64,000 bases of DNA, taken from contig JAOASJ010000126.1 in the NCBI GenBank assembly GCA_030158725.1, positions 1 to 64,000 of the forward strand. Reading direction: 5' to 3'. A program made the translations under genes and the position numbers. The notes beneath the pieces are model-generated. The model was not told where the DNA came from. It did not search any database and saw only the letters and a list, made by a program, of their open reading frames with translations. Position 1 is the stretch's first letter; each line of letters opens with the position of its first letter. Source of the DNA: Bacteroidia bacterium. GTDB taxonomy: Bacteria > Bacteroidota > Bacteroidia > NS11-12g > UBA955. Below, in pieces: positions 23,641 to 33,881 of the stretch.

Positions 23641-24858
23641 ATGAAAAAATTAATTTTATTACTAAGTATAGGATTCTGCTTTAATGCATCTGTTAAAGCA
23701 CAAATATTAACTAAAGAGGATTCTCTTGCTGCGGGTCTGCAAATGAGTGGAAAAACCACTGTGTTGAGTGGATACGGTGAAAGCATGTTTTCATATGATA
23801 AGGGTCAAAAGACGGCTAATATAAATGTGACTAGATTTGTTACTTTCTTCGGTCACAGATTTAGCAAAAGCATTACTTTGTTTTCTGAATTGGAATTGGA
23901 AAATGCCAAGGTAGCTAACGGTAGTCCTAGTGGAGAGTTTTCTCTAGAGCAAATGTTCTTGAAATTTGATTTAAACCGCTCAAACTACATCGTTGCGGGT
24001 TTATTTATTCCGAGGATTGGTATCATTAATGAAAACCATTTGCCTACAACTTATAATGGCAACAACAGGCATTTTGTTGAATCAAGAATGATTCCATCTA
24101 CATGGAGAGAATTGGGTGTAGGATTGTATGGTAAGTTTGACCGCCTGCCAGGTTTTAACTACTATGTAGGATTAACCAATGGTCTGAATAGTGCTGCCTT
24201 CACCCGTCAAACTGGAATTCGCGAAGGAAGATATGAAGGAAGCAATGCATCAGCAACCAATGTTGCAATTAGCGCTGCTGCCTTGTATTACTATAGAAAT
24301 TTTAGAATTCAAGCTTCCGGATACTATGGTGGAAGCGCTGGTGTTACGCCTAAACAAGCCGATAGTTTGATGTTAATCAGTGGGCCTTTCGGGACACCTG
24401 TAGCATTGGCTGAAATGAATGTTCAGTACACAGGTAAAAGATGGGGCTTTAAATCTTTAATCGGTACTGTATCCATAGCGGATGCTTATGGTGTTAATAG
24501 AGCTTATGCGAACAATGTGGCAAGAAACATGTTGGGTGCTTTTACCGAGGTTTCTTACAACATTATCCATTCAAGCGATATGATGGCTAAAAGATTAACT
24601 GCTTTTGCTCGATACGAGTGGTTTGATTTGAATTATAGAATGCCTCTCAATGGTATTAAAGACAATGCCCTTAACCAACAGTTTTTTGTCTATGGTTTTA
24701 CCTACAGACCAACCGTTGGTGTTGCAATTAAATTAGATGCCGTGAACAAAATAACTGGAACACCTAACAGTGCATTCAATATTACGCCATTCCCACAATT
24801 GCCAGTTTACTATAAAAACAATTGGTTCTTTAATTTAGGCTTGGCTTATAATTTCTAA
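23641..24858 (+). CDS. Outer-membrane porin-like beta-barrel protein
   Basis: A 405-residue protein with signal peptide (LILLLSIGFCFNASVKA, then QILTKEDS). Porin-like alternating strands follow: SITLFSELELENAKV, FSLEQMFLKFDLN, YIVAGLFIPRIGIINENHLP, and a terminal WFFNLGLAYNF ending in Phe, the usual signal for the Bam machinery. The FIPRIGIINENH region resembles anion/phosphate-selective porin-like proteins of the phylum. It is the first gene of a tight operon with Rieske, imelysin and di-heme lipoproteins (gap 1 nt, then two ATGA overlaps), so it probably supplies outer-membrane passage or a platform for that module. Confidence 0.8.
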   Translation: MKKLILLLSIGFCFNASVKAQILTKEDSLAAGLQMSGKTTVLSGYGESMFSYDKGQKTANINVTRFVTFFGHRFSKSITLFSELELENAKVANGSPSGEFSLEQMFLKFDLNRSNYIVAGLFIPRIGIINENHLPTTYNGNNRHFVESRMIPSTWRELGVGLYGKFDRLPGFNYYVGLTNGLNSAAFTRQTGIREGRYEGSNASATNVAISAAALYYYRNFRIQASGYYGGSAGVTPKQADSLMLISGPFGTPVALAEMNVQYTGKRWGFKSLIGTVSIADAYGVNRAYANNVARNMLGAFTEVSYNIIHSSDMMAKRLTAFARYEWFDLNYRMPLNGIKDNALNQQFFVYGFTYRPTVGVAIKLDAVNKITGTPNSAFNITPFPQLPVYYKNNWFFNLGLAYNF

Positions 24859-24859
24859 A

Positions 24860-25288
24860 ATGAAAAGAAAAGAATTTGTAAAAACGAGTTGCAGTATTTG
24901 CATAGGTGCTTTGGCCGGTGTTTCTGTATTGAGTTTGATGCAGTCGTGCGCTACTGGTAGAATTATAAAAATGGAACCTCAGAACAATGTGTTAAGTGTG
25001 ATGAAATCTGAATTTACACCTGAGCAAAATTTCGTGCTCTTGCGCACCAGCAATTTAAACTTTGATGTTTTGTTGTATAAAAAATCAGAGACTGAATACA
25101 AAGCATTATTAATGCAATGTACCCATTATGACAATCCAGTTTTTGCAAATAAAAAAGAGATTTTTTGTCCCTCACATGGCAGCACTTTTAGCTTCGAAGG
25201 TAAAGTGCAAAAAGAGCCTGCGAGCCGCGATTTGAAGTCTTATAAAACAGAAATATTAAACGATAAAATAAATATAAACCTAGTATGA
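24860..25288 (+). CDS. Rieske [2Fe-2S] lipoprotein
   Basis: A 142-residue protein with both Rieske cluster boxes: CTHYDN (C87, H89) and CPSHGSTF (C103, H106). The N-terminus has MKRKEFVKTS, a hydrophobic stretch and a lipobox LMQSC (C30), so it looks like a membrane-anchored, possibly lipid-modified periplasmic electron carrier. Classical quinol oxidase Rieske proteins come with cytochrome b; none is here. Its gene overlaps that of an imelysin by ATGA (25285-25288), suggesting electron transfer within this iron-linked module. Confidence 0.88.
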   Translation: MKRKEFVKTSCSICIGALAGVSVLSLMQSCATGRIIKMEPQNNVLSVMKSEFTPEQNFVLLRTSNLNFDVLLYKKSETEYKALLMQCTHYDNPVFANKKEIFCPSHGSTFSFEGKVQKEPASRDLKSYKTEILNDKININLV

Positions 25289-26334
25289 GAAATCTATATA
25301 TAATTACATGTATTTTGGTGCTTATTTCATGTGAAAAAGAGAAAGCTACCAATAATGTAGTAAGCACGCAATCTGATGTATTACGCGATTTAAGTTTAAA
25401 TGTTTACTTAAGCACTTATGAAAATTTAAGTCTAAGAACCAATAAATTTCACCAAGATGTTCAATCATTCATTAATAATCCTACTCAAGAGAATCTAGAC
25501 CTATGCCGCAGCGGTTGGAAAAGTGCTAGAGAAGCTTGGGAAAACTCTGAAGCTTGGCTGTTTGGCCCCGTTTCTACCAATAGCATAGACCCAAGTATTG
25601 ATACTTGGCCAGTAGATTTTATTCGACTTGACTCTGTGCTTTCTAGTACTGCGGTTTTTGACAATACCTATATTAATAATTTAGAAGAATCATTAAAGGG
25701 ATTTCATCCAATTGAATATATTTTATTTGGTTTTAATGGCAATAAATCAGCCAACCAAATTACCAGCCGACAAAAGGAATACTTGCTTGCTTTGTCAGAA
25801 AATTTACGCCAACTAACTCTTGACCTGCATAATTCTTGGGCGCTTCAAGGGGGTAATTATGTTACTGAAATTTTGAATGCAGGTAGTTCAAATTTATTTC
25901 CAAGCAAACTTAGTGCTTATCAAGAAATAGCCAATGCTATGATTGGTATATGCGATGAAGTAGCCAATGGAAAAATTGGTGATGTGTTTACCACCTTAGA
26001 TTCTATGGGTGAAGAATCGCCTTTTGCAAAAAACTCTATGGTCGACTTTAAAAACAATATACTAGGTGTTGAAGCTGTTTATTTGGGCAATATCAATGGC
26101 TCAGACAACAAAGGAATGGAGGATTTTGTACGTATGTACAATCTGAGTTTGGATGGAAAAATCAAACAAAAGATTAGCCAATCCAAAGCTGCATTAGCCC
26201 AAATTACACTTCCATTTGGTCGCGCCATTTTCGAACAACCTATACAGGTACAACAAGCCATAGATGCGATTAATAGCTTGAAAACCGAATTAGAAGAAGG
26301 TCTGTTGCCACTAATACAAATGCATGTCAAATGA
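25285..26334 (+). CDS. Imelysin (M75) family lipoprotein
   Basis: A 349-residue lipoprotein (signal peptide then LVLISC, C16) of the imelysin/EfeO-like family. It has the conserved GFHPIEYILFG (H141 and E144, the GxHxxE motif) and RSGWKSAREAWENSEAW. Imelysins are iron-regulated periplasmic or surface proteins thought to bind iron in uptake systems; protease activity is doubtful. Its start overlaps the Rieske stop and its stop overlaps the di-heme gene start (ATGA at 26331-26334). Confidence 0.9.
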   Translation: MRNLYIITCILVLISCEKEKATNNVVSTQSDVLRDLSLNVYLSTYENLSLRTNKFHQDVQSFINNPTQENLDLCRSGWKSAREAWENSEAWLFGPVSTNSIDPSIDTWPVDFIRLDSVLSSTAVFDNTYINNLEESLKGFHPIEYILFGFNGNKSANQITSRQKEYLLALSENLRQLTLDLHNSWALQGGNYVTEILNAGSSNLFPSKLSAYQEIANAMIGICDEVANGKIGDVFTTLDSMGEESPFAKNSMVDFKNNILGVEAVYLGNINGSDNKGMEDFVRMYNLSLDGKIKQKISQSKAALAQITLPFGRAIFEQPIQVQQAIDAINSLKTELEEGLLPLIQMHVK

Positions 26335-27713
26335 GCATAAGAACTAAATTCATACTTTCAATTGTATTGGTTTCTTCTTTAATAATTACCTCATGTAGAA
26401 AATACAATGAGTCTTATGAAGATCCAGACGAGGAATGGTTCTCTGGCGGAAGTCAGACTTTCTTTGATGGAAATACCAGTGGATTTGACCATGCTTTTAC
26501 CGGATTAGATGCCCGTCAGATGCAAAACCATGAAGTGGGTGATAAAGCCTTCGATGCAGCTTTTGTAACTGCGCCTGCGCCTTTAAATTCTGGTCTAGGC
26601 CCATTGTACAACAATGTCTCTTGCGTGAGCTGTCATGTAAACGATGGAAGGGGTAAACCGCCTGTAAATGGGGAGTCATTATCGAGTATGCTTATTCGTG
26701 TAAGTATTCCAGGTGCCAATTCTCACGGAGGACCTAATGGTATTCCTGGTTTTGGTGGTCAGCTACAACAGCGTTCTATTGCCGGAAAAATGCCGGAGGC
26801 TGATGTGCAAATTTCGTACACCAATATCAATGGGACTATGGACGATGGAACTCCTTATACCTTGCGTCAGCCATCGTACACCTTAAACAATGCGTATACA
26901 AGTTTGCCTCCTAACTATTTAATGTCAGCCCGCGTTGCACCGCCTGTTTTTGGTCTGGGACTATTAGAAGCTATTTCAGATTATGACATCATAAAATATG
27001 CCGATGAAAACGATATGAACGGAGATGGCATAAGTGGCAAACCAAATAGAGTATGGGATGTTTTAACTGCCTCTTATCGATTGGGTCGTTTTGGTTGGAA
27101 AGCTGGTCAGCCAAGCCTTTTGCAACAATCAGCTGGGGCTTATAATGAAGATATGGGTGTTACAAATTTTGTGTTTCCAGTTGAAAATTCATTTTCTCAA
27201 ATTCAACACGATGGTATAAATGATGAAACTGAAATAAGTGATTCAATTATGCATGCAGTTGCCTTTTATATGCAAACCCTAGGTGTTCCTGCACGCAGAA
27301 ATGCAAAGGATCCTGTAGTACTTGAAGGCAAACGGATTTTTAACCAAATCCAATGTGCTTCTTGTCATATTGCCAAACATGTTACGGCTACCGATATGGC
27401 ATTTACATCAAGAAGCAATCAAAAAATATTTCCTTACACCGATTTGTTGTTGCACGACATGGGTCCTGGTTTGGCCGATATGCGTTCAGAATTTCAAGCC
27501 GATGGATACGAATGGCGCACACCTGCTTTGTGGGGCATTGGTTTAACCCAGAAAATAAATGGACATGCTTATTTCTTGCACGATGGTAGGGCGCGTAATT
27601 TAACAGAAGCCATTTTGTGGCATGGTGGGGAAGCGGAGGCGAGTAAAAACAAGTTTAAAAAGCTAAGTGCCGATGAGCGCAATGCTGTTTTAAAGTTTCT
27701 AGAATCGCTTTAA
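26331..27713 (+). CDS. Di-heme oxidoreductase-like (DHOR/MauG-CcpA class) lipoprotein
   Basis: A 460-residue lipoprotein (lipobox LIITSC, C22) with two c-type heme motifs: CVSCH (98-102) and CASCH near residue 345. Other family marks are AFDAAFVTAPAPLNSGLGP near heme 1 and LHDGRARNLTEAILWHGGEA near the end, typical of the so-called thiol oxidoreductase/DHOR family. It would transfer electrons in the periplasm and, with the Rieske protein, may set the redox state of iron bound by imelysin; that pairing is inference. Its TAA abuts the TTA (reverse stop) of the next gene with no terminator. Confidence 0.88.
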   Translation: MSIRTKFILSIVLVSSLIITSCRKYNESYEDPDEEWFSGGSQTFFDGNTSGFDHAFTGLDARQMQNHEVGDKAFDAAFVTAPAPLNSGLGPLYNNVSCVSCHVNDGRGKPPVNGESLSSMLIRVSIPGANSHGGPNGIPGFGGQLQQRSIAGKMPEADVQISYTNINGTMDDGTPYTLRQPSYTLNNAYTSLPPNYLMSARVAPPVFGLGLLEAISDYDIIKYADENDMNGDGISGKPNRVWDVLTASYRLGRFGWKAGQPSLLQQSAGAYNEDMGVTNFVFPVENSFSQIQHDGINDETEISDSIMHAVAFYMQTLGVPARRNAKDPVVLEGKRIFNQIQCASCHIAKHVTATDMAFTSRSNQKIFPYTDLLLHDMGPGLADMRSEFQADGYEWRTPALWGIGLTQKINGHAYFLHDGRARNLTEAILWHGGEAEASKNKFKKLSADERNAVLKFLESL

Positions 27714-29522
27714 TTACCAATAAATATAATCGAAGAAATAGATGTTTGGTTGATTGCCATTTTCTGTTTCTTCTATTACTTTTTCTATCTCACCTTTTTC
27801 ATTGTAGGTGATGGTTTTTTTAGAGCTTTGTTTGTCTCTATAGTATCTCGTTTCACTTACTATACGGGCTTGATCATCGTAGGCATAAATATAACTTTGG
27901 TCATCGTCATGCTCTATAGAAATTAAAAGGCCTGAGTCATTGTAAACAAAATGGGTCCCGTCTTCAGGCACATTATGTATTCCACTGGTAATGAAGAGTA
28001 TTTTCTTGTTCTTAAATAAATAATAATTGCTGTAATTACTGCTGTTTTGATTGTATTGCTTTTTGTCTTTTAAAAAGCCACTGTCGGTGAATGAAAACAC
28101 GGAATAATCTATATCTATTTTTCCATTAAATACTGAATACGATTCTAGATAGCACACATTGTCTTTGTAATAGTAATAACGGGTCTCGTCACTTGTAGGG
28201 TTGCCGGTTTGAGTTGAGGTTAATATATTGCCTTTCGTATTGTAGGTGAAATCAAATGCCTCAGAGATTACCTCTCTTTTGAATTCAGAAATCTTAATTA
28301 ATTGACCTAGCGAGTCGAACAAATAACTTTCTGAATAGTATTTCTTTCCAGAAGAAAAATTTACTTTTTCTAGCACTTGACCAGACTTGGAAATTGAAAT
28401 TTCTCTAAATGGAATTACCGTGTCTTTTTTAGTATAACGGTCCTTTTGTTTGATGATTACCGTCTTAATGTTATGGGGATAAAATTTAGGCAATTCCTCT
28501 AAGAAAGGGATGTTAATTTTAGCCTCTACATATGGACTTTTATACGTGTTAATGGTGTGCTTGTTAGGGAAAATGAAATTGTTAATTTCCTTTGGCATAG
28601 TTGTGTTTATCAAGGAACCATAAGGACCATTAGGGTTTAAGAAGGGTTTAATTTCTTCAAAACTTAAACGAATTTCTGCATCCAAACCGCCAGTGTTGTA
28701 CATACACGATTGCCATTGAGGAATGTAATATGAAAAAGAGAAGATCTTAGGGAAAATGAAGCCGTTTTTAAGTGCAGAAAAACCACTGACTTTCATAGGT
28801 TTTTTTGATTGCGCATATTCTAGTGTAGCATCTTCATAAAAATCAGATGGATCTTGTTTGTTTTTTTGATTCTGCTGCACATAATTGTTGAGTTTTAAAC
28901 TGATTTTCTTTTCAAGAAGCTCATTGAATTGCTTTATACTGCTTTGCTTATATATAGCAGAAGCATTGTATTCTTTGCCTGTATTTACATTGATATAATA
29001 GGTTTGCGTGTACTCGAATTTGTTGATTTTAAAACGGTTGTACACCGCTTGGTATTTAAATACCGCTTGAAAAACCAAGATGCCATTGTAGTAGGATAAA
29101 AACTGATGTTTTATGTAGGTTAGTTCAGGAGAGAATCTGGTTTCATTGTCTTGGTATAGGCCTAAATCATCATAGTCTTCGTCGCGGTTATTTAAATACA
29201 TATGTACACTTTCTTTGCAGTGCGCATTGATTTTTAATTTGAAAGAATCAGACTCCAATTGTGAAAATAATATGTTCTCAAACCGTTTGTTGATCTTCTT
29301 TTGAATGTTGCTGTCTTTTAAATCAATGAGGATAGGAATTGATACATCCAACTCTTCATAAAAATTGATTTTAGAATTATTCAGGGTTTGATATTTGCTA
29401 ATGTAGGTGACTTTTTTGTTGTTCAATAAATCATGAACTTCTAAGCCATCATTGTATGCACTAAGTGTTTGAATTGAGCATAGGCTCAATAAAAGTATAA
29501 GTATAAATTGTGTTTTTCTCAT
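27714..29522 (-). CDS. Exported hypothetical protein with DUF3298-like and YD-type repeat regions
   Basis: A 602-residue protein with a signal peptide (MRKTQFILILLLSLCSIQTLSA). The N-terminal half has segments like DUF3298 (YYNGILVFQAVFKYQAVY, TYYINVNTGKEYNASAI). The C-terminal third has short RHS/YD-like units (FDSLGQLIKISEF, YNTKGNILTSTQTG, YDDQARIVSETRYY, YNEKGEIEKVIEE), which form beta-sheet repeat structures. The gene starts 2 nt after the stop of the YwqK-repeat protein and both begin MRK, so the two are one transcription unit and likely act together. Function unknown. Confidence 0.7.
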   Translation of the reverse strand: MRKTQFILILLLSLCSIQTLSAYNDGLEVHDLLNNKKVTYISKYQTLNNSKINFYEELDVSIPILIDLKDSNIQKKINKRFENILFSQLESDSFKLKINAHCKESVHMYLNNRDEDYDDLGLYQDNETRFSPELTYIKHQFLSYYNGILVFQAVFKYQAVYNRFKINKFEYTQTYYINVNTGKEYNASAIYKQSSIKQFNELLEKKISLKLNNYVQQNQKNKQDPSDFYEDATLEYAQSKKPMKVSGFSALKNGFIFPKIFSFSYYIPQWQSCMYNTGGLDAEIRLSFEEIKPFLNPNGPYGSLINTTMPKEINNFIFPNKHTINTYKSPYVEAKINIPFLEELPKFYPHNIKTVIIKQKDRYTKKDTVIPFREISISKSGQVLEKVNFSSGKKYYSESYLFDSLGQLIKISEFKREVISEAFDFTYNTKGNILTSTQTGNPTSDETRYYYYKDNVCYLESYSVFNGKIDIDYSVFSFTDSGFLKDKKQYNQNSSNYSNYYLFKNKKILFITSGIHNVPEDGTHFVYNDSGLLISIEHDDDQSYIYAYDDQARIVSETRYYRDKQSSKKTITYNEKGEIEKVIEETENGNQPNIYFFDYIYW

Positions 29523-29524
29523 GA

Positions 29525-32500
29525 TTAGTTGGCTTTAAAATAAATGTAGAATACGTATTCTGATTTTTCATTGTCGTACTCACTGTAAACTGAATAAAAG
29601 CCTTTTTCTTTCAGTTTGTTTTCAACGCTCTTAGGAATAAATGAATAGTCTTTTCCCTTGTATTTAAACTCATAAAATAATGCAGCACCTACTTTCGCTT
29701 TTATGGCAAATGAGGCTATGATATAATTGTTTTCAATAAGGGTGTTGCGGCCAATTACCATCATGTTTGTGTCTGTATTGAAAACATCTTTAGGAAAGCC
29801 TAATTGAGCAGAATCAATGAATATCCCAACAAATTTACTTAAGGCTGATTCTTTTTTGCCATAGGAGCCTGGATTGTTTGTGCCATAGCTACCTCTACCG
29901 CCGCCATCACCATAGCCCCGTGAGCTTCCTCTCGAATACGTGCTTTCATATTCATCTTCCCCATAATAATAGTAATTTCCATAGCGTTCAAAACTCAAGG
30001 CCTCTATTTGATAAGGGTTTCTGCTAATATCTAAGTCGAGAACAAAATCATTGAAATCTATACTCACGCCGGAATGACCAATTTCAGATTTTGGAAAACA
30101 AATGTCACTGGCATTTGATACTTCGAAATGGGCATCTTTGTTATATCTGATTTCTTTGGCTTTAAACAAAAGAGGAGAGGGTAAGTATACGTCAAATTGT
30201 CTAGCGGTATTGCTGTATTCATTCACCTGTTTGTTCTTGTACAAGAGGGAAGTATCCCAGCGGTGGAAAAGGTTTTTTGAAAATTGTATACTTAAATATT
30301 TCGGATAAATACTTACCCTAGTTTGCGCTTTGTCTTTGGTGTTCACATTTACCATAAAGGGTATAGAACTAATTGAATTCGCTTTGGTATAACATGGGTT
30401 TAGGCAAAGTTCTAGTCCATTGTAATTGGGTATTTTAATGTTCAGTTTTTCGAAGGACAACAAATCAAAGGAAGCAAAACTGGCATTTTCATTGTTGTTG
30501 AATTGCAAGTTTTTATAGAACAATCTGTTAAGGTATTCGTCAATAGGTGCATGGAAATTAAAACTCCATTCGCGCAACTTGGTTTGACTCACCAAATCTT
30601 TTAAACCTGGGGCATAAGAAATTCTTGAGCTTGTTGTGTCTAGGCATTCACATTCCAATTGAGAAAAAGACTTTAAAGAATAACCATTCTTATATTGGAT
30701 TTCTTTGTTGAATGAGCCATCTTCATTGTAAAAAGTCCAGGTGCTGTCAGACTTGCCGTTTTTATACCAAGCAACTGTTTTTGGTTTTCCGTTATTCCAC
30801 CATTGCAGATAAGGACCATTTTGTTTGTGGTTTTCCCATTCTTCATATTGGGTTTTTATACCATTGATGTTAAAGCTCTCAATAATTTGATGTTTTAAAT
30901 TTGAGGTGGTGAAATAACTGCTTGACTTTAATTGTCCATTTTTGTGAAAGTTTTTATAGCCAATATTTATACCTGAATCGTAGTTGATTTCAGTTTCAAT
31001 TTTGCCATTTGGGTACCACAAGGTGTGTGTGCCGTGCATTTTATTGTCTAGGTAAAAAGCCAACATTTTAATTTGCCCCGAATCGTACCATTCTCTTTTT
31101 TCTATAGATTTGTTGTTCAAACTAATTTCCATGAAGGATTTAAATCCGCTAGGATAATAACTGTAGCTGGTATCATTGTATTTGCCAAAATGTTCGGTTT
31201 CTTCCTTAAAAACGTTGCCATTGGCATGGTAAATTTTGAATGGTCCGTAGGCTTTTTGATTCTCTAAATAACAATCCACCATTTTGTTCCCATTGGGATA
31301 AAAGAGGTTTAATTTAACGTGTTCGCCAAATTCATATTTAAAAAATGAACGGGCTGCAGGGTTGGCAAGTCGGTCGGGATCCCGGGAGATGTCTATGTTT
31401 TTTTGCTTAACTGTCTTATTGTAAAGTGTATAAAAATGATTGATTAAGGTGTCTGTTTGACGCATGGTCGAGTCCTTATACAAAGCTTTTAATACACTGC
31501 CATCAGAGGCCCAAAACAGATCGTAATCCATTGCTCTGCCATGCACATCATAATCCGTTAAGCTTTTTAAATTTCCATTGTAATAATACTTTAAAACTCT
31601 GCCAACTCGGTGGGAATGGTATAAAATTTCCAGTTCTTTCAACTTGCCGTTGTTGTGAAATTTTAGGCTATATAAAAAATCGGTTGAGCTATACGCTTGG
31701 GTGTTTTTAAGGTTAATATGGTATTGTATTTCATTATTGATATTGTTTTCGTAATACTGAATACGTTTAAAGACATGGTCCCCATTATAGTAAGTAACTG
31801 TTTTTGGCATACCTGTTTTGTAATATTCAAAATGGGTTTTCAAATAATCCATTTTGTTGTTTAGTGTATTGCGGGCAGAGTCAACTTGAATCATTGAGCT
31901 TATTTTGCCATCTTTGTCGTAAGTTTTAACTTCTCCATTTGGGAGGTTGTGCTTGAAATACCTAGACTCCATTAATTGTCCATTCTCATACCAAATAAGC
32001 CATTGTCCTTCTTTAAAGCCCATCACATAATTGCCTTTTTCAATTAAGTTTCCGTTTTCCGCATATATAAGTTGCTCCCCATCTTTAACAGAACAAAAGG
32101 TGTCTTTTTTTAGCACATAATTTTCTACAGTTCTTATAATGTTGTTGTCATTCCAGTAAGTAGCCTTGCCGATTTTTTGTCCGTTTTTATACATTACCTC
32201 GCTAGACTTAATGCCATTGAGAAAGTAGTTGGTAAAAAGGCCATCTTCCTTGCCGTGTATGTATTTGCCTATGCTTTTCTTATTGCCATTGTTGTAATAT
32301 GTTTGATAGTTTCCATGGTAAATGGTTCTGTGGTATTTGCGTATGCTATCATATTTGTCGTACGACTCAGTAAATTGAGAAAGATTGCCGTTGCTTTCCC
32401 ATGTTTTATTGATACCGTCAACACGGTCTAGTTTGTAGTTTGTTTCTTGCTTTTTTAAACCGCTTTCATACCACAATTCATACAAGCCATTTTTTTTGCC

Positions 32501-33211
32501 AAACACATAATTGCAATGCTCGGACATTTTGCCGTTTTCAAAATATGTAATTTGCTCTCCATTCTTTATTTCTCTTTTGTATCTTTTGCTGGTGTCTTGT
32601 GCATAATGATAAACATACCTCAGTTTTCCACTTGTATACCAAGCCTTGCTGCTTAAGGTCTCGTCGTTTTTATACGTTATTTCCGATCTTTTACTTCCTG
32701 TTTCATAGTATTCTATCCATTTTCCATACCTGGCACCCGCTTTGTAATTGCCAGAGGTTTGAATGCCTCCACTTTTGTAATACTTTAAATATTTACCATC
32801 TAGTTTGGTGTAATAATCATTAATAGGTTTATTGTATTTAACATCAACAACGACATCGTATTTAGCCTTTATGTAATGCTCTTCACTTTGCATTTGACCA
32901 TTGTCATACCATTCTTTGATAGACATACATAGGTCATTCACATAAATATGCTCGCGTCGAACTTGGCCGTTGTCGTACCAGAAAAGGTGTTTGCCTTCTT
33001 TTAAACTGTCGATTATAAATTCTTCACTGGCCAAATTTCCACTAATATGGTAAGTGCGGATGGTGGTTTTATTCCCTTCCTTAGTGGTGATCGATTGAAT
33101 TGCTTTTTTATTGTACCTAGAATATACCGTATCAGAATGGAAATTTGATTGGCCAATTCCACAAGTAATACTTGTGAAAATGATTAAAAATAGCAGATAA
33201 ATTTTACGCAT
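29525..33211 (-). CDS. Giant exported YwqK/MORN-like repeat protein
   Basis: A 1228-residue protein with signal peptide (IYLLFLIIFTSITCGIGQ). Residues about 40-870 are built from roughly twenty 20-30-residue units of the form G-x-x-x-x-W/Y-Y-x-N-G-x-x-x-x-x-x-Y. Examples are HLFWYDNGQVRREHIY, GQWLIWYENGQLMESRYF and HTLWYPNGKIETEINY. These are the MORN-variant units annotated as YwqK antitoxin-like. The C-terminal 350 residues differ: a CECLDTTSS segment, then a Tyr/Gly/Ser-rich stretch (about 1110-1145) and a beta-rich end. No T9SS sorting domain was seen. It is probably a periplasmic or surface protein; no antitoxin role is supported. Confidence 0.78.
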   Translation of the reverse strand: MRKIYLLFLIIFTSITCGIGQSNFHSDTVYSRYNKKAIQSITTKEGNKTTIRTYHISGNLASEEFIIDSLKEGKHLFWYDNGQVRREHIYVNDLCMSIKEWYDNGQMQSEEHYIKAKYDVVVDVKYNKPINDYYTKLDGKYLKYYKSGGIQTSGNYKAGARYGKWIEYYETGSKRSEITYKNDETLSSKAWYTSGKLRYVYHYAQDTSKRYKREIKNGEQITYFENGKMSEHCNYVFGKKNGLYELWYESGLKKQETNYKLDRVDGINKTWESNGNLSQFTESYDKYDSIRKYHRTIYHGNYQTYYNNGNKKSIGKYIHGKEDGLFTNYFLNGIKSSEVMYKNGQKIGKATYWNDNNIIRTVENYVLKKDTFCSVKDGEQLIYAENGNLIEKGNYVMGFKEGQWLIWYENGQLMESRYFKHNLPNGEVKTYDKDGKISSMIQVDSARNTLNNKMDYLKTHFEYYKTGMPKTVTYYNGDHVFKRIQYYENNINNEIQYHINLKNTQAYSSTDFLYSLKFHNNGKLKELEILYHSHRVGRVLKYYYNGNLKSLTDYDVHGRAMDYDLFWASDGSVLKALYKDSTMRQTDTLINHFYTLYNKTVKQKNIDISRDPDRLANPAARSFFKYEFGEHVKLNLFYPNGNKMVDCYLENQKAYGPFKIYHANGNVFKEETEHFGKYNDTSYSYYPSGFKSFMEISLNNKSIEKREWYDSGQIKMLAFYLDNKMHGTHTLWYPNGKIETEINYDSGINIGYKNFHKNGQLKSSSYFTTSNLKHQIIESFNINGIKTQYEEWENHKQNGPYLQWWNNGKPKTVAWYKNGKSDSTWTFYNEDGSFNKEIQYKNGYSLKSFSQLECECLDTTSSRISYAPGLKDLVSQTKLREWSFNFHAPIDEYLNRLFYKNLQFNNNENASFASFDLLSFEKLNIKIPNYNGLELCLNPCYTKANSISSIPFMVNVNTKDKAQTRVSIYPKYLSIQFSKNLFHRWDTSLLYKNKQVNEYSNTARQFDVYLPSPLLFKAKEIRYNKDAHFEVSNASDICFPKSEIGHSGVSIDFNDFVLDLDISRNPYQIEALSFERYGNYYYYGEDEYESTYSRGSSRGYGDGGGRGSYGTNNPGSYGKKESALSKFVGIFIDSAQLGFPKDVFNTDTNMMVIGRNTLIENNYIIASFAIKAKVGAALFYEFKYKGKDYSFIPKSVENKLKEKGFYSVYSEYDNEKSEYVFYIYFKAN

Positions 33212-33222
33212 AATAGAAATAC

Positions 33223-33867
33223 TTAGATTTTCGTTTCTTCAGCGTAAGCTTGGTCTAGTGTTCTTGTAAATACCTCCAAAGGTTGCGCGCCTGAAATCCC
33301 GTATTTGCGGTTGAATACAAAGAAAGGAACTCCGCGCACACCAATTTGTTGGGCTTCATAAGCATCGAATTCAACTTGCTCTGAAAATTGTTTTTCATCT
33401 AAAACCTTTTCTGCTTCAGCGGCATTTAAACCAATAGACACAGCAATTTCAATTAGTTCAGTCTTGCTGTCAATGTTTTTGCCTTCCATGAAATAGGCTT
33501 TAAACAAGGCCTCCTCAATGGCATCGCCTAAATTTTGAGTTTTCGCAAATTGAATTATGCGGTGGGCATTAAAGGTGTTAGCAACCACAGTAGCGTCCAT
33601 GTTGTAATTCAAACCAACTTCTTCAGCCATGGCTGTAACTTGCTCACCCATTTGTTTGGCATATTCAATAGTCCAACCTTTGGCTTCGGCTAAATATTCG
33701 TGTATGCTTTGGATTTTATTGGTTTTAAGTTCTGGATTTAACTGAAAGCTTTTCCATTCTATTTCTACATCCGATTGGTGTTCAAATCCATTCAATGCTT
33801 CTTCCAAACGGCGTTTTCCAATATAGCAAAAGGGGCAGGCTACATCGCTCCAAATTTCAATTTTCAT
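33223..33867 (-). CDS. DsbA-family oxidoreductase (FrnE/2-hydroxychromene isomerase-like)
   Basis: A 214-residue cytoplasmic DsbA-fold protein: KIEIWSDVACPFCYIGKRRLE (C11 and C14), NTFNAHRIIQFAK, and cis-Pro segment GVRGVPFFVFNRKYGISGAQP. FrnE-like proteins are linked to polyketide or oxidative-stress thiol chemistry, but partners vary. The start is ATG 33867; the upstream TTG lies inside the -7 element that ends 6 nt before the ATG. It precedes the YwqK-repeat gene by 11 nt and may share its transcript. Confidence 0.9.
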   Translation of the reverse strand: MKIEIWSDVACPFCYIGKRRLEEALNGFEHQSDVEIEWKSFQLNPELKTNKIQSIHEYLAEAKGWTIEYAKQMGEQVTAMAEEVGLNYNMDATVVANTFNAHRIIQFAKTQNLGDAIEEALFKAYFMEGKNIDSKTELIEIAVSIGLNAAEAEKVLDEKQFSEQVEFDAYEAQQIGVRGVPFFVFNRKYGISGAQPLEVFTRTLDQAYAEETKI

Positions 33868-33873
33868 ATGCCA

Positions 33874-33881
33874 CAAATATA
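33874..33881 (-). promoter_or_regulatory. -7 element for the FrnE-like gene
   Basis: The reverse strand reads TATATTTG, 6 nt before the ATG at 33867; a leaderless transcript is predicted. Confidence 0.6.

Follow-up and report, generated by a model that had tools for sequence, protein, structure and literature searches.

A conserved gene pair in Bacteroidia encoding a giant MORN_2-repeat protein and a YD-repeat partner: a candidate cell-envelope complex

A giant, apparently exported MORN_2-repeat protein and the protein encoded directly downstream of it constitute a conserved gene pair in Bacteroidia. Our best explanation, to which we give about an even chance of being right, is that the pair is one accessory operon for an exported, probably heteromeric cell-envelope complex made up of a ribbon scaffold and a binding head. 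Such a complex has probably not been described before. MORN_2 proteins, which are common among bacteria, are as a rule annotated as antitoxins on scant functional evidence. A member that is conserved, apparently exported and consistently paired with a ligand-binding-type partner offers a concrete test system for an envelope role. The pair also links bacterial MORN_2 ribbons to the unstudied DUF6603 proteins.

The locus

The pair lies in a window of 64,000 nucleotides (contig JAOASJ010000126.1) from a 2.67-Mb Bacteroidota metagenome assembly, GCA_030158725.1. Among named sequences, contig CANFXY010000005.1 ('Bacteroidetes bacterium isolate Jr-16oct17-93') is the nearest relative of the locus. 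The first-pass annotation of the window had described two adjacent open reading frames (ORFs) separated by 2 nt, a giant of 1228 residues followed by a partner of 602, each with an export signal. This layout was confirmed, and both N-termini, judged by eye, resemble type I signal peptides. A promoter and terminator scan of the locus gave results near chance level. The features are as follows.

29525..33211, minus strand: giant MORN_2-repeat protein, 1228 aa (ORF; Pfam MORN_2; dN/dS)
33152..33211, minus strand: apparent signal peptide of the giant, aa ~1-20, without lipobox (sequence by eye; orthologues alike)
30677..33070, minus strand: MORN_2 array of the giant, ~28 units, aa 48-845 (unit profile)
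29528..30661, minus strand: C-terminal module of the giant, aa 851-1228, with Cys854, Cys856, Cys940 and Cys1038 (alignments; profile-profile comparison)
29807..29938, minus strand: Tyr/Gly/Ser-rich insert of the giant, aa ~1092-1135 (low model confidence; not conserved)
27714..29522, minus strand: partner protein, 602 aa (ORF; homologue directly downstream of giants)
28593..29456, minus strand: N-terminal half of the partner, aa ~23-310, predicted DUF4163/DUF3298 (RsiV-like) fold (Foldseek)
27717..28475, minus strand: C-terminal half of the partner, aa ~350-602, ~10 YD/Rhs-like beta hairpins (profile and fold)
33223..33876, minus strand: DsbA-family gene without apparent signal peptide, 11 nt upstream of the giant (family profile match)
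26331-27713: DHOR gene, the neighbour on the other side of the pair

Conservation of the pair

Both genes were found in 15 loci from at least six families, counting loci in which the downstream region is present; a sixteenth copy (G003) ends at a contig edge. In all 15 the giant comes first and the partner follows directly downstream on the same strand, with a spacing of -4 to +9 nt (13 of the 15 loci measured). Among 395 genomes drawn from the class, a full-length partner (E below 1e-170) was present in eight, and these are exactly the eight with a full-length giant. Some partners were missed by the first profile used (A2) and were recovered with a wider one. The probability that giant and partner genomes coincide by chance is 7e-17, a figure that kinship among the genomes makes less extreme. 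The two proteins have correlated tree distances (0.91; 0 of 10000 permutations), and seven of nine splits are common to both trees; this correlation follows from joint inheritance as one operon and does not amount to proof of a complex or of contact.

Comparison with the G010 orthologues gave dN/dS values of 0.10 (giant) and 0.145 (partner), indicating purifying selection. Residues 851-1091 of the giant, with 0.057, are among its most constrained parts, and the C-termini of giants and partners align across families. The search for the pair in related genomes, proposed earlier as a check, thus found it conserved, and given this co-conservation and these dN/dS values, the contrary picture of genes not conserved together, with degenerate repeats free of purifying selection, does not apply.

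The MORN_2 array

The giant matches Pfam MORN_2 (PF07661) with an E-value of 1.3e-36 and 120.7 bits, against a curated cut-off of 29.6, as do all 11 of 11 giant orthologues at the level of a Pfam match. Iterating a unit profile across the orthologues brought out 28 units in the window protein, compared with a mean of 0.65 and a maximum of 2 in shuffled protein. The repeats noted at first sight are therefore real, but 'about twenty' YYxNG-type units was an undercount. Profile matches were also obtained to OspA and SET7/9, which have ribbon folds; a single-sequence PDB search returned nothing useful.

Units are unevenly spaced. In the first ~457 residues most fall into triplets of 24+24+~32 aa, with one gap of 43. 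Every one of the 13 giants scanned, a set that includes the window protein, has between one and five detected triplets; G376, G299 and G209 have just one. This triplet layout is new here. In the G010 protein, 27 units align in register with those of the window giant, each being the best match of its own counterpart. In distant orthologues most units remain in register, although the unit at the corresponding position is frequently not the unique top match.

Variation of the repeat number between strains had been named as something to look for; across the 13 giants the number is roughly constant, at 19-29 detected units, and protein length is near-constant as well (1109-1228 aa). No tandem repeats were found at the DNA level in the giant gene; the array is thus probably old, and the idea of a phase-variable repeat was dropped.

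The C-terminal module

The repeats are followed by a module of ~375 aa. Its four cysteines are invariant in all 11 complete giants aligned; in a 15-row alignment with a partial row among its members, two of the cysteines remain invariant and the other two nearly so. The Tyr/Gly/Ser-rich segment within the module, already pointed out in the first-pass annotation, is indeed present, yet it is a variable insert absent from more distant relatives. A predicted model of the C-terminal part, computed from 15 aligned rows, has a moderate mean pLDDT of 75.5, and a fold search of the PDB and a viral library with it gave no confident match beyond MORN-type repeats.

Profile-profile comparison revealed homology between this module and the one at the N-terminus of DUF6603 proteins (PF20248; hhalign 99.4%, E 2e-21), a relationship that is new here. 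The N-terminal module alone is common to both; a Pfam scan of the giant gave no PF20248 match. Besides the opposite position of the module, DUF6603 proteins differ from the giant in that its LNPC cysteine is replaced (LNPG/S), their start has no apparent signal peptide whereas that of the giant is signal-like, and they reside in gene clusters other than the giant-partner pair. A literature search on DUF6603 found no paper.

The partner protein

The partner was modeled with a moderate mean pLDDT of 77.4, also from a 15-row alignment. Its N-terminal half is predicted to adopt an alpha/beta fold, for which Foldseek returned the DUF3298 entry 3s5t (E 4.4e-7, target-normalised TM 0.53), the RsiV-lysozyme complex entry 5jen (E 5.5e-6, target-normalised TM 0.47) and 3cyg. 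The proposed DUF3298-like half is thus upheld by the predicted fold but not by sequence: among 11 members of the partner family no Pfam DUF3298 match was seen at E 0.1, and one member gave a weak PdaC match (0.047). The partner further differs from RsiV in lacking an apparent transmembrane anti-sigma part and in having YD repeats fused on. RsiV is a lysozyme receptor, and Rv1980c, a DUF4163/DUF3298 protein, did not bind lysozyme (PMC5014341); as Rv1980c has the same fold, the ligand of the partner cannot be deduced from its fold.

For the C-terminal half, both the sequence profile and the predicted hairpin fold match Rhs/YD repeats, in agreement with the YD-like repeats reported earlier. Compared with Rhs/YD-repeat proteins, the partner has only ~10 hairpins and no recognised autoprotease domain.

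Distribution and genomic position

Within the genus the pair is patchy, being clear in 4 of 17 genomes, or 5 when the cut copy in G003 is counted. In the window it sits exactly between the DHOR and DsbA-family genes, which in the genus relatives G015 and G005 are directly convergent with nothing between them. G012 and G002 carry the pair elsewhere in the genome. It is, accordingly, accessory. The G151 copy, from another family, is placed nearer to the window copy than some same-genus copies are, which hints at horizontal transfer, although the split concerned has weak support (29 and 74).

Lacking the pair, the junction in G015 and G005 serves as a clean site for comparison. Positions 23641-27713 of the window encode an outer-membrane-type protein, a Rieske protein, an imelysin and DHOR, a compact cluster that is kept in G010, G015 and G005.

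Possible functions of the pair

Because full-length giant and full-length partner always occur together among the class genomes sampled, they probably form one cell-envelope complex. In such a complex the stacked MORN_2 units would build a long beta ribbon one layer thick, ~27-32 nm if straight, serving as scaffold or spacer and ending in a disulfide-stabilised cap. The short YD ribbon of the partner would dock on the giant and hold out a DUF4163/DUF3298 head of the RsiV type for binding a ligand in the envelope or outside the cell. The complex would most likely serve to protect the envelope or to allow attachment through it. A constrained, coupled and apparently exported pair fits the surface or periplasmic scaffold suggested in the first-pass annotation. 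A bolder version, in which a fixed-length MORN ribbon of about periplasm depth acts as ruler or bridge, with the disulfide cap and the DUF3298 head on its YD ribbon, and the whole represents a new class of envelope machine, seems unlikely to us.

The main rival, a possibility with a real though minor share of the probability, is a surface adhesin: a ribbon displayed outside the cell that binds particles, polysaccharide or cells, with the partner as anchoring or binding subunit. The closest curated NCBIfam profile to the giant is that of the Leptospira LIC20035 family adhesin (NF033566), which aligns along the repeats with 53.8 bits (1.4e-14), far below its cut-off of 250, and has shown no matching end module or partner. 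MORN2 proteins also occur in outer-membrane vesicles of Fusobacterium, where a role in adhesion was suggested without proof (PMC10434195). However, the near-constant length and the absence of DNA tandem repeats are unlike many fast-varying adhesins, and no surface-targeting feature such as a T9SS sorting domain or a lipobox was found in the window pair (Por_Secre_tail, the T9SS C-terminal sorting domain, has no match in either protein at E 1). The lack of an anchor, lipobox or sorting domain in the window pair counts against the envelope-complex reading too, as it offers no explanation for attachment to the surface.

Much less probable is a toxin-immunity or contact-dependent system of the kind suggested by YwqJ-YwqK and by Rhs/YD-repeat toxins. 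In its favour, automatic annotation labels MORN_2 units as YwqK antitoxin; in Bacillus subtilis, ywqJ and ywqK make up a toxin-antitoxin pair (PMC8321402); and Rhs toxins contain YD repeats. The giant does have the unit sequence and ~24-residue period of the MORN_2/YwqK family, but differs in its long array, apparent export, triplet layout, four-cysteine end module and constant partner gene, and it gives no sign of antitoxin function. No toxin family, PADLOC or PHROG match was obtained; specifically, neither the partner nor any scanned flanking gene matches a toxin family that would supply a deaminase-type toxin beside the giant, and the few YD hairpins of the partner come with no recognised toxin domain. 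Instead of a variable C-terminal toxin domain, both proteins have conserved, non-polymorphic C-termini with low dN/dS, and both have signal-like N-termini. Given the conserved C-termini and the failure to find any toxin domain, a toxin, contact-dependent or antitoxin role, including the contact-dependent system offered earlier as an option, is poorly supported by the sequences. Least probable, and hardly credible, is that the DsbA-family gene, giant and partner work together as a redox unit on the cysteines of the giant. The thiol oxidoreductase gene reported just upstream is this DsbA-family gene; its 11-nt spacing is kept in G010, and it adjoins the pair in G003 too. Yet its product has no apparent signal peptide, it does not adjoin the pair in G012 or G002, and by eye it was not seen beside the pair at the loci of other families. 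Because it is a single-copy core gene of all 17 genus genomes, pair-less ones included (in G015 and G005 it adjoins the same neighbour without the pair), its adjacency in the window genome, G010 and G003 is probably incidental.

Related proteins

The window genome encodes other, shorter MORN_2 proteins at C127, C72, C4, C8, C50 and C32; a full-length partner was not seen at the five of these loci examined (all but C8). One viral contig, IMGVR_UViG_3300029267_002225, carries a locus of several small MORN-like ORFs (L029:4809-9523) and was rejected as an orthologue of the giant. Proteins of ~1300-2100 aa with an N-terminal module similar to the end module of the giant are found at loci L040, L082, L084, L085, L088 and L089, and the one scanned, from L040, carries Pfam DUF6603. 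Further large ORFs occur in these gene clusters; a Pfam scan of two from L040 and one from L082 gave no match. A 980-aa protein without MORN_2 array or partner (L083:6013-8952, in G217) combines SBBP beta-propeller matches with a module related to the end module of the giant.
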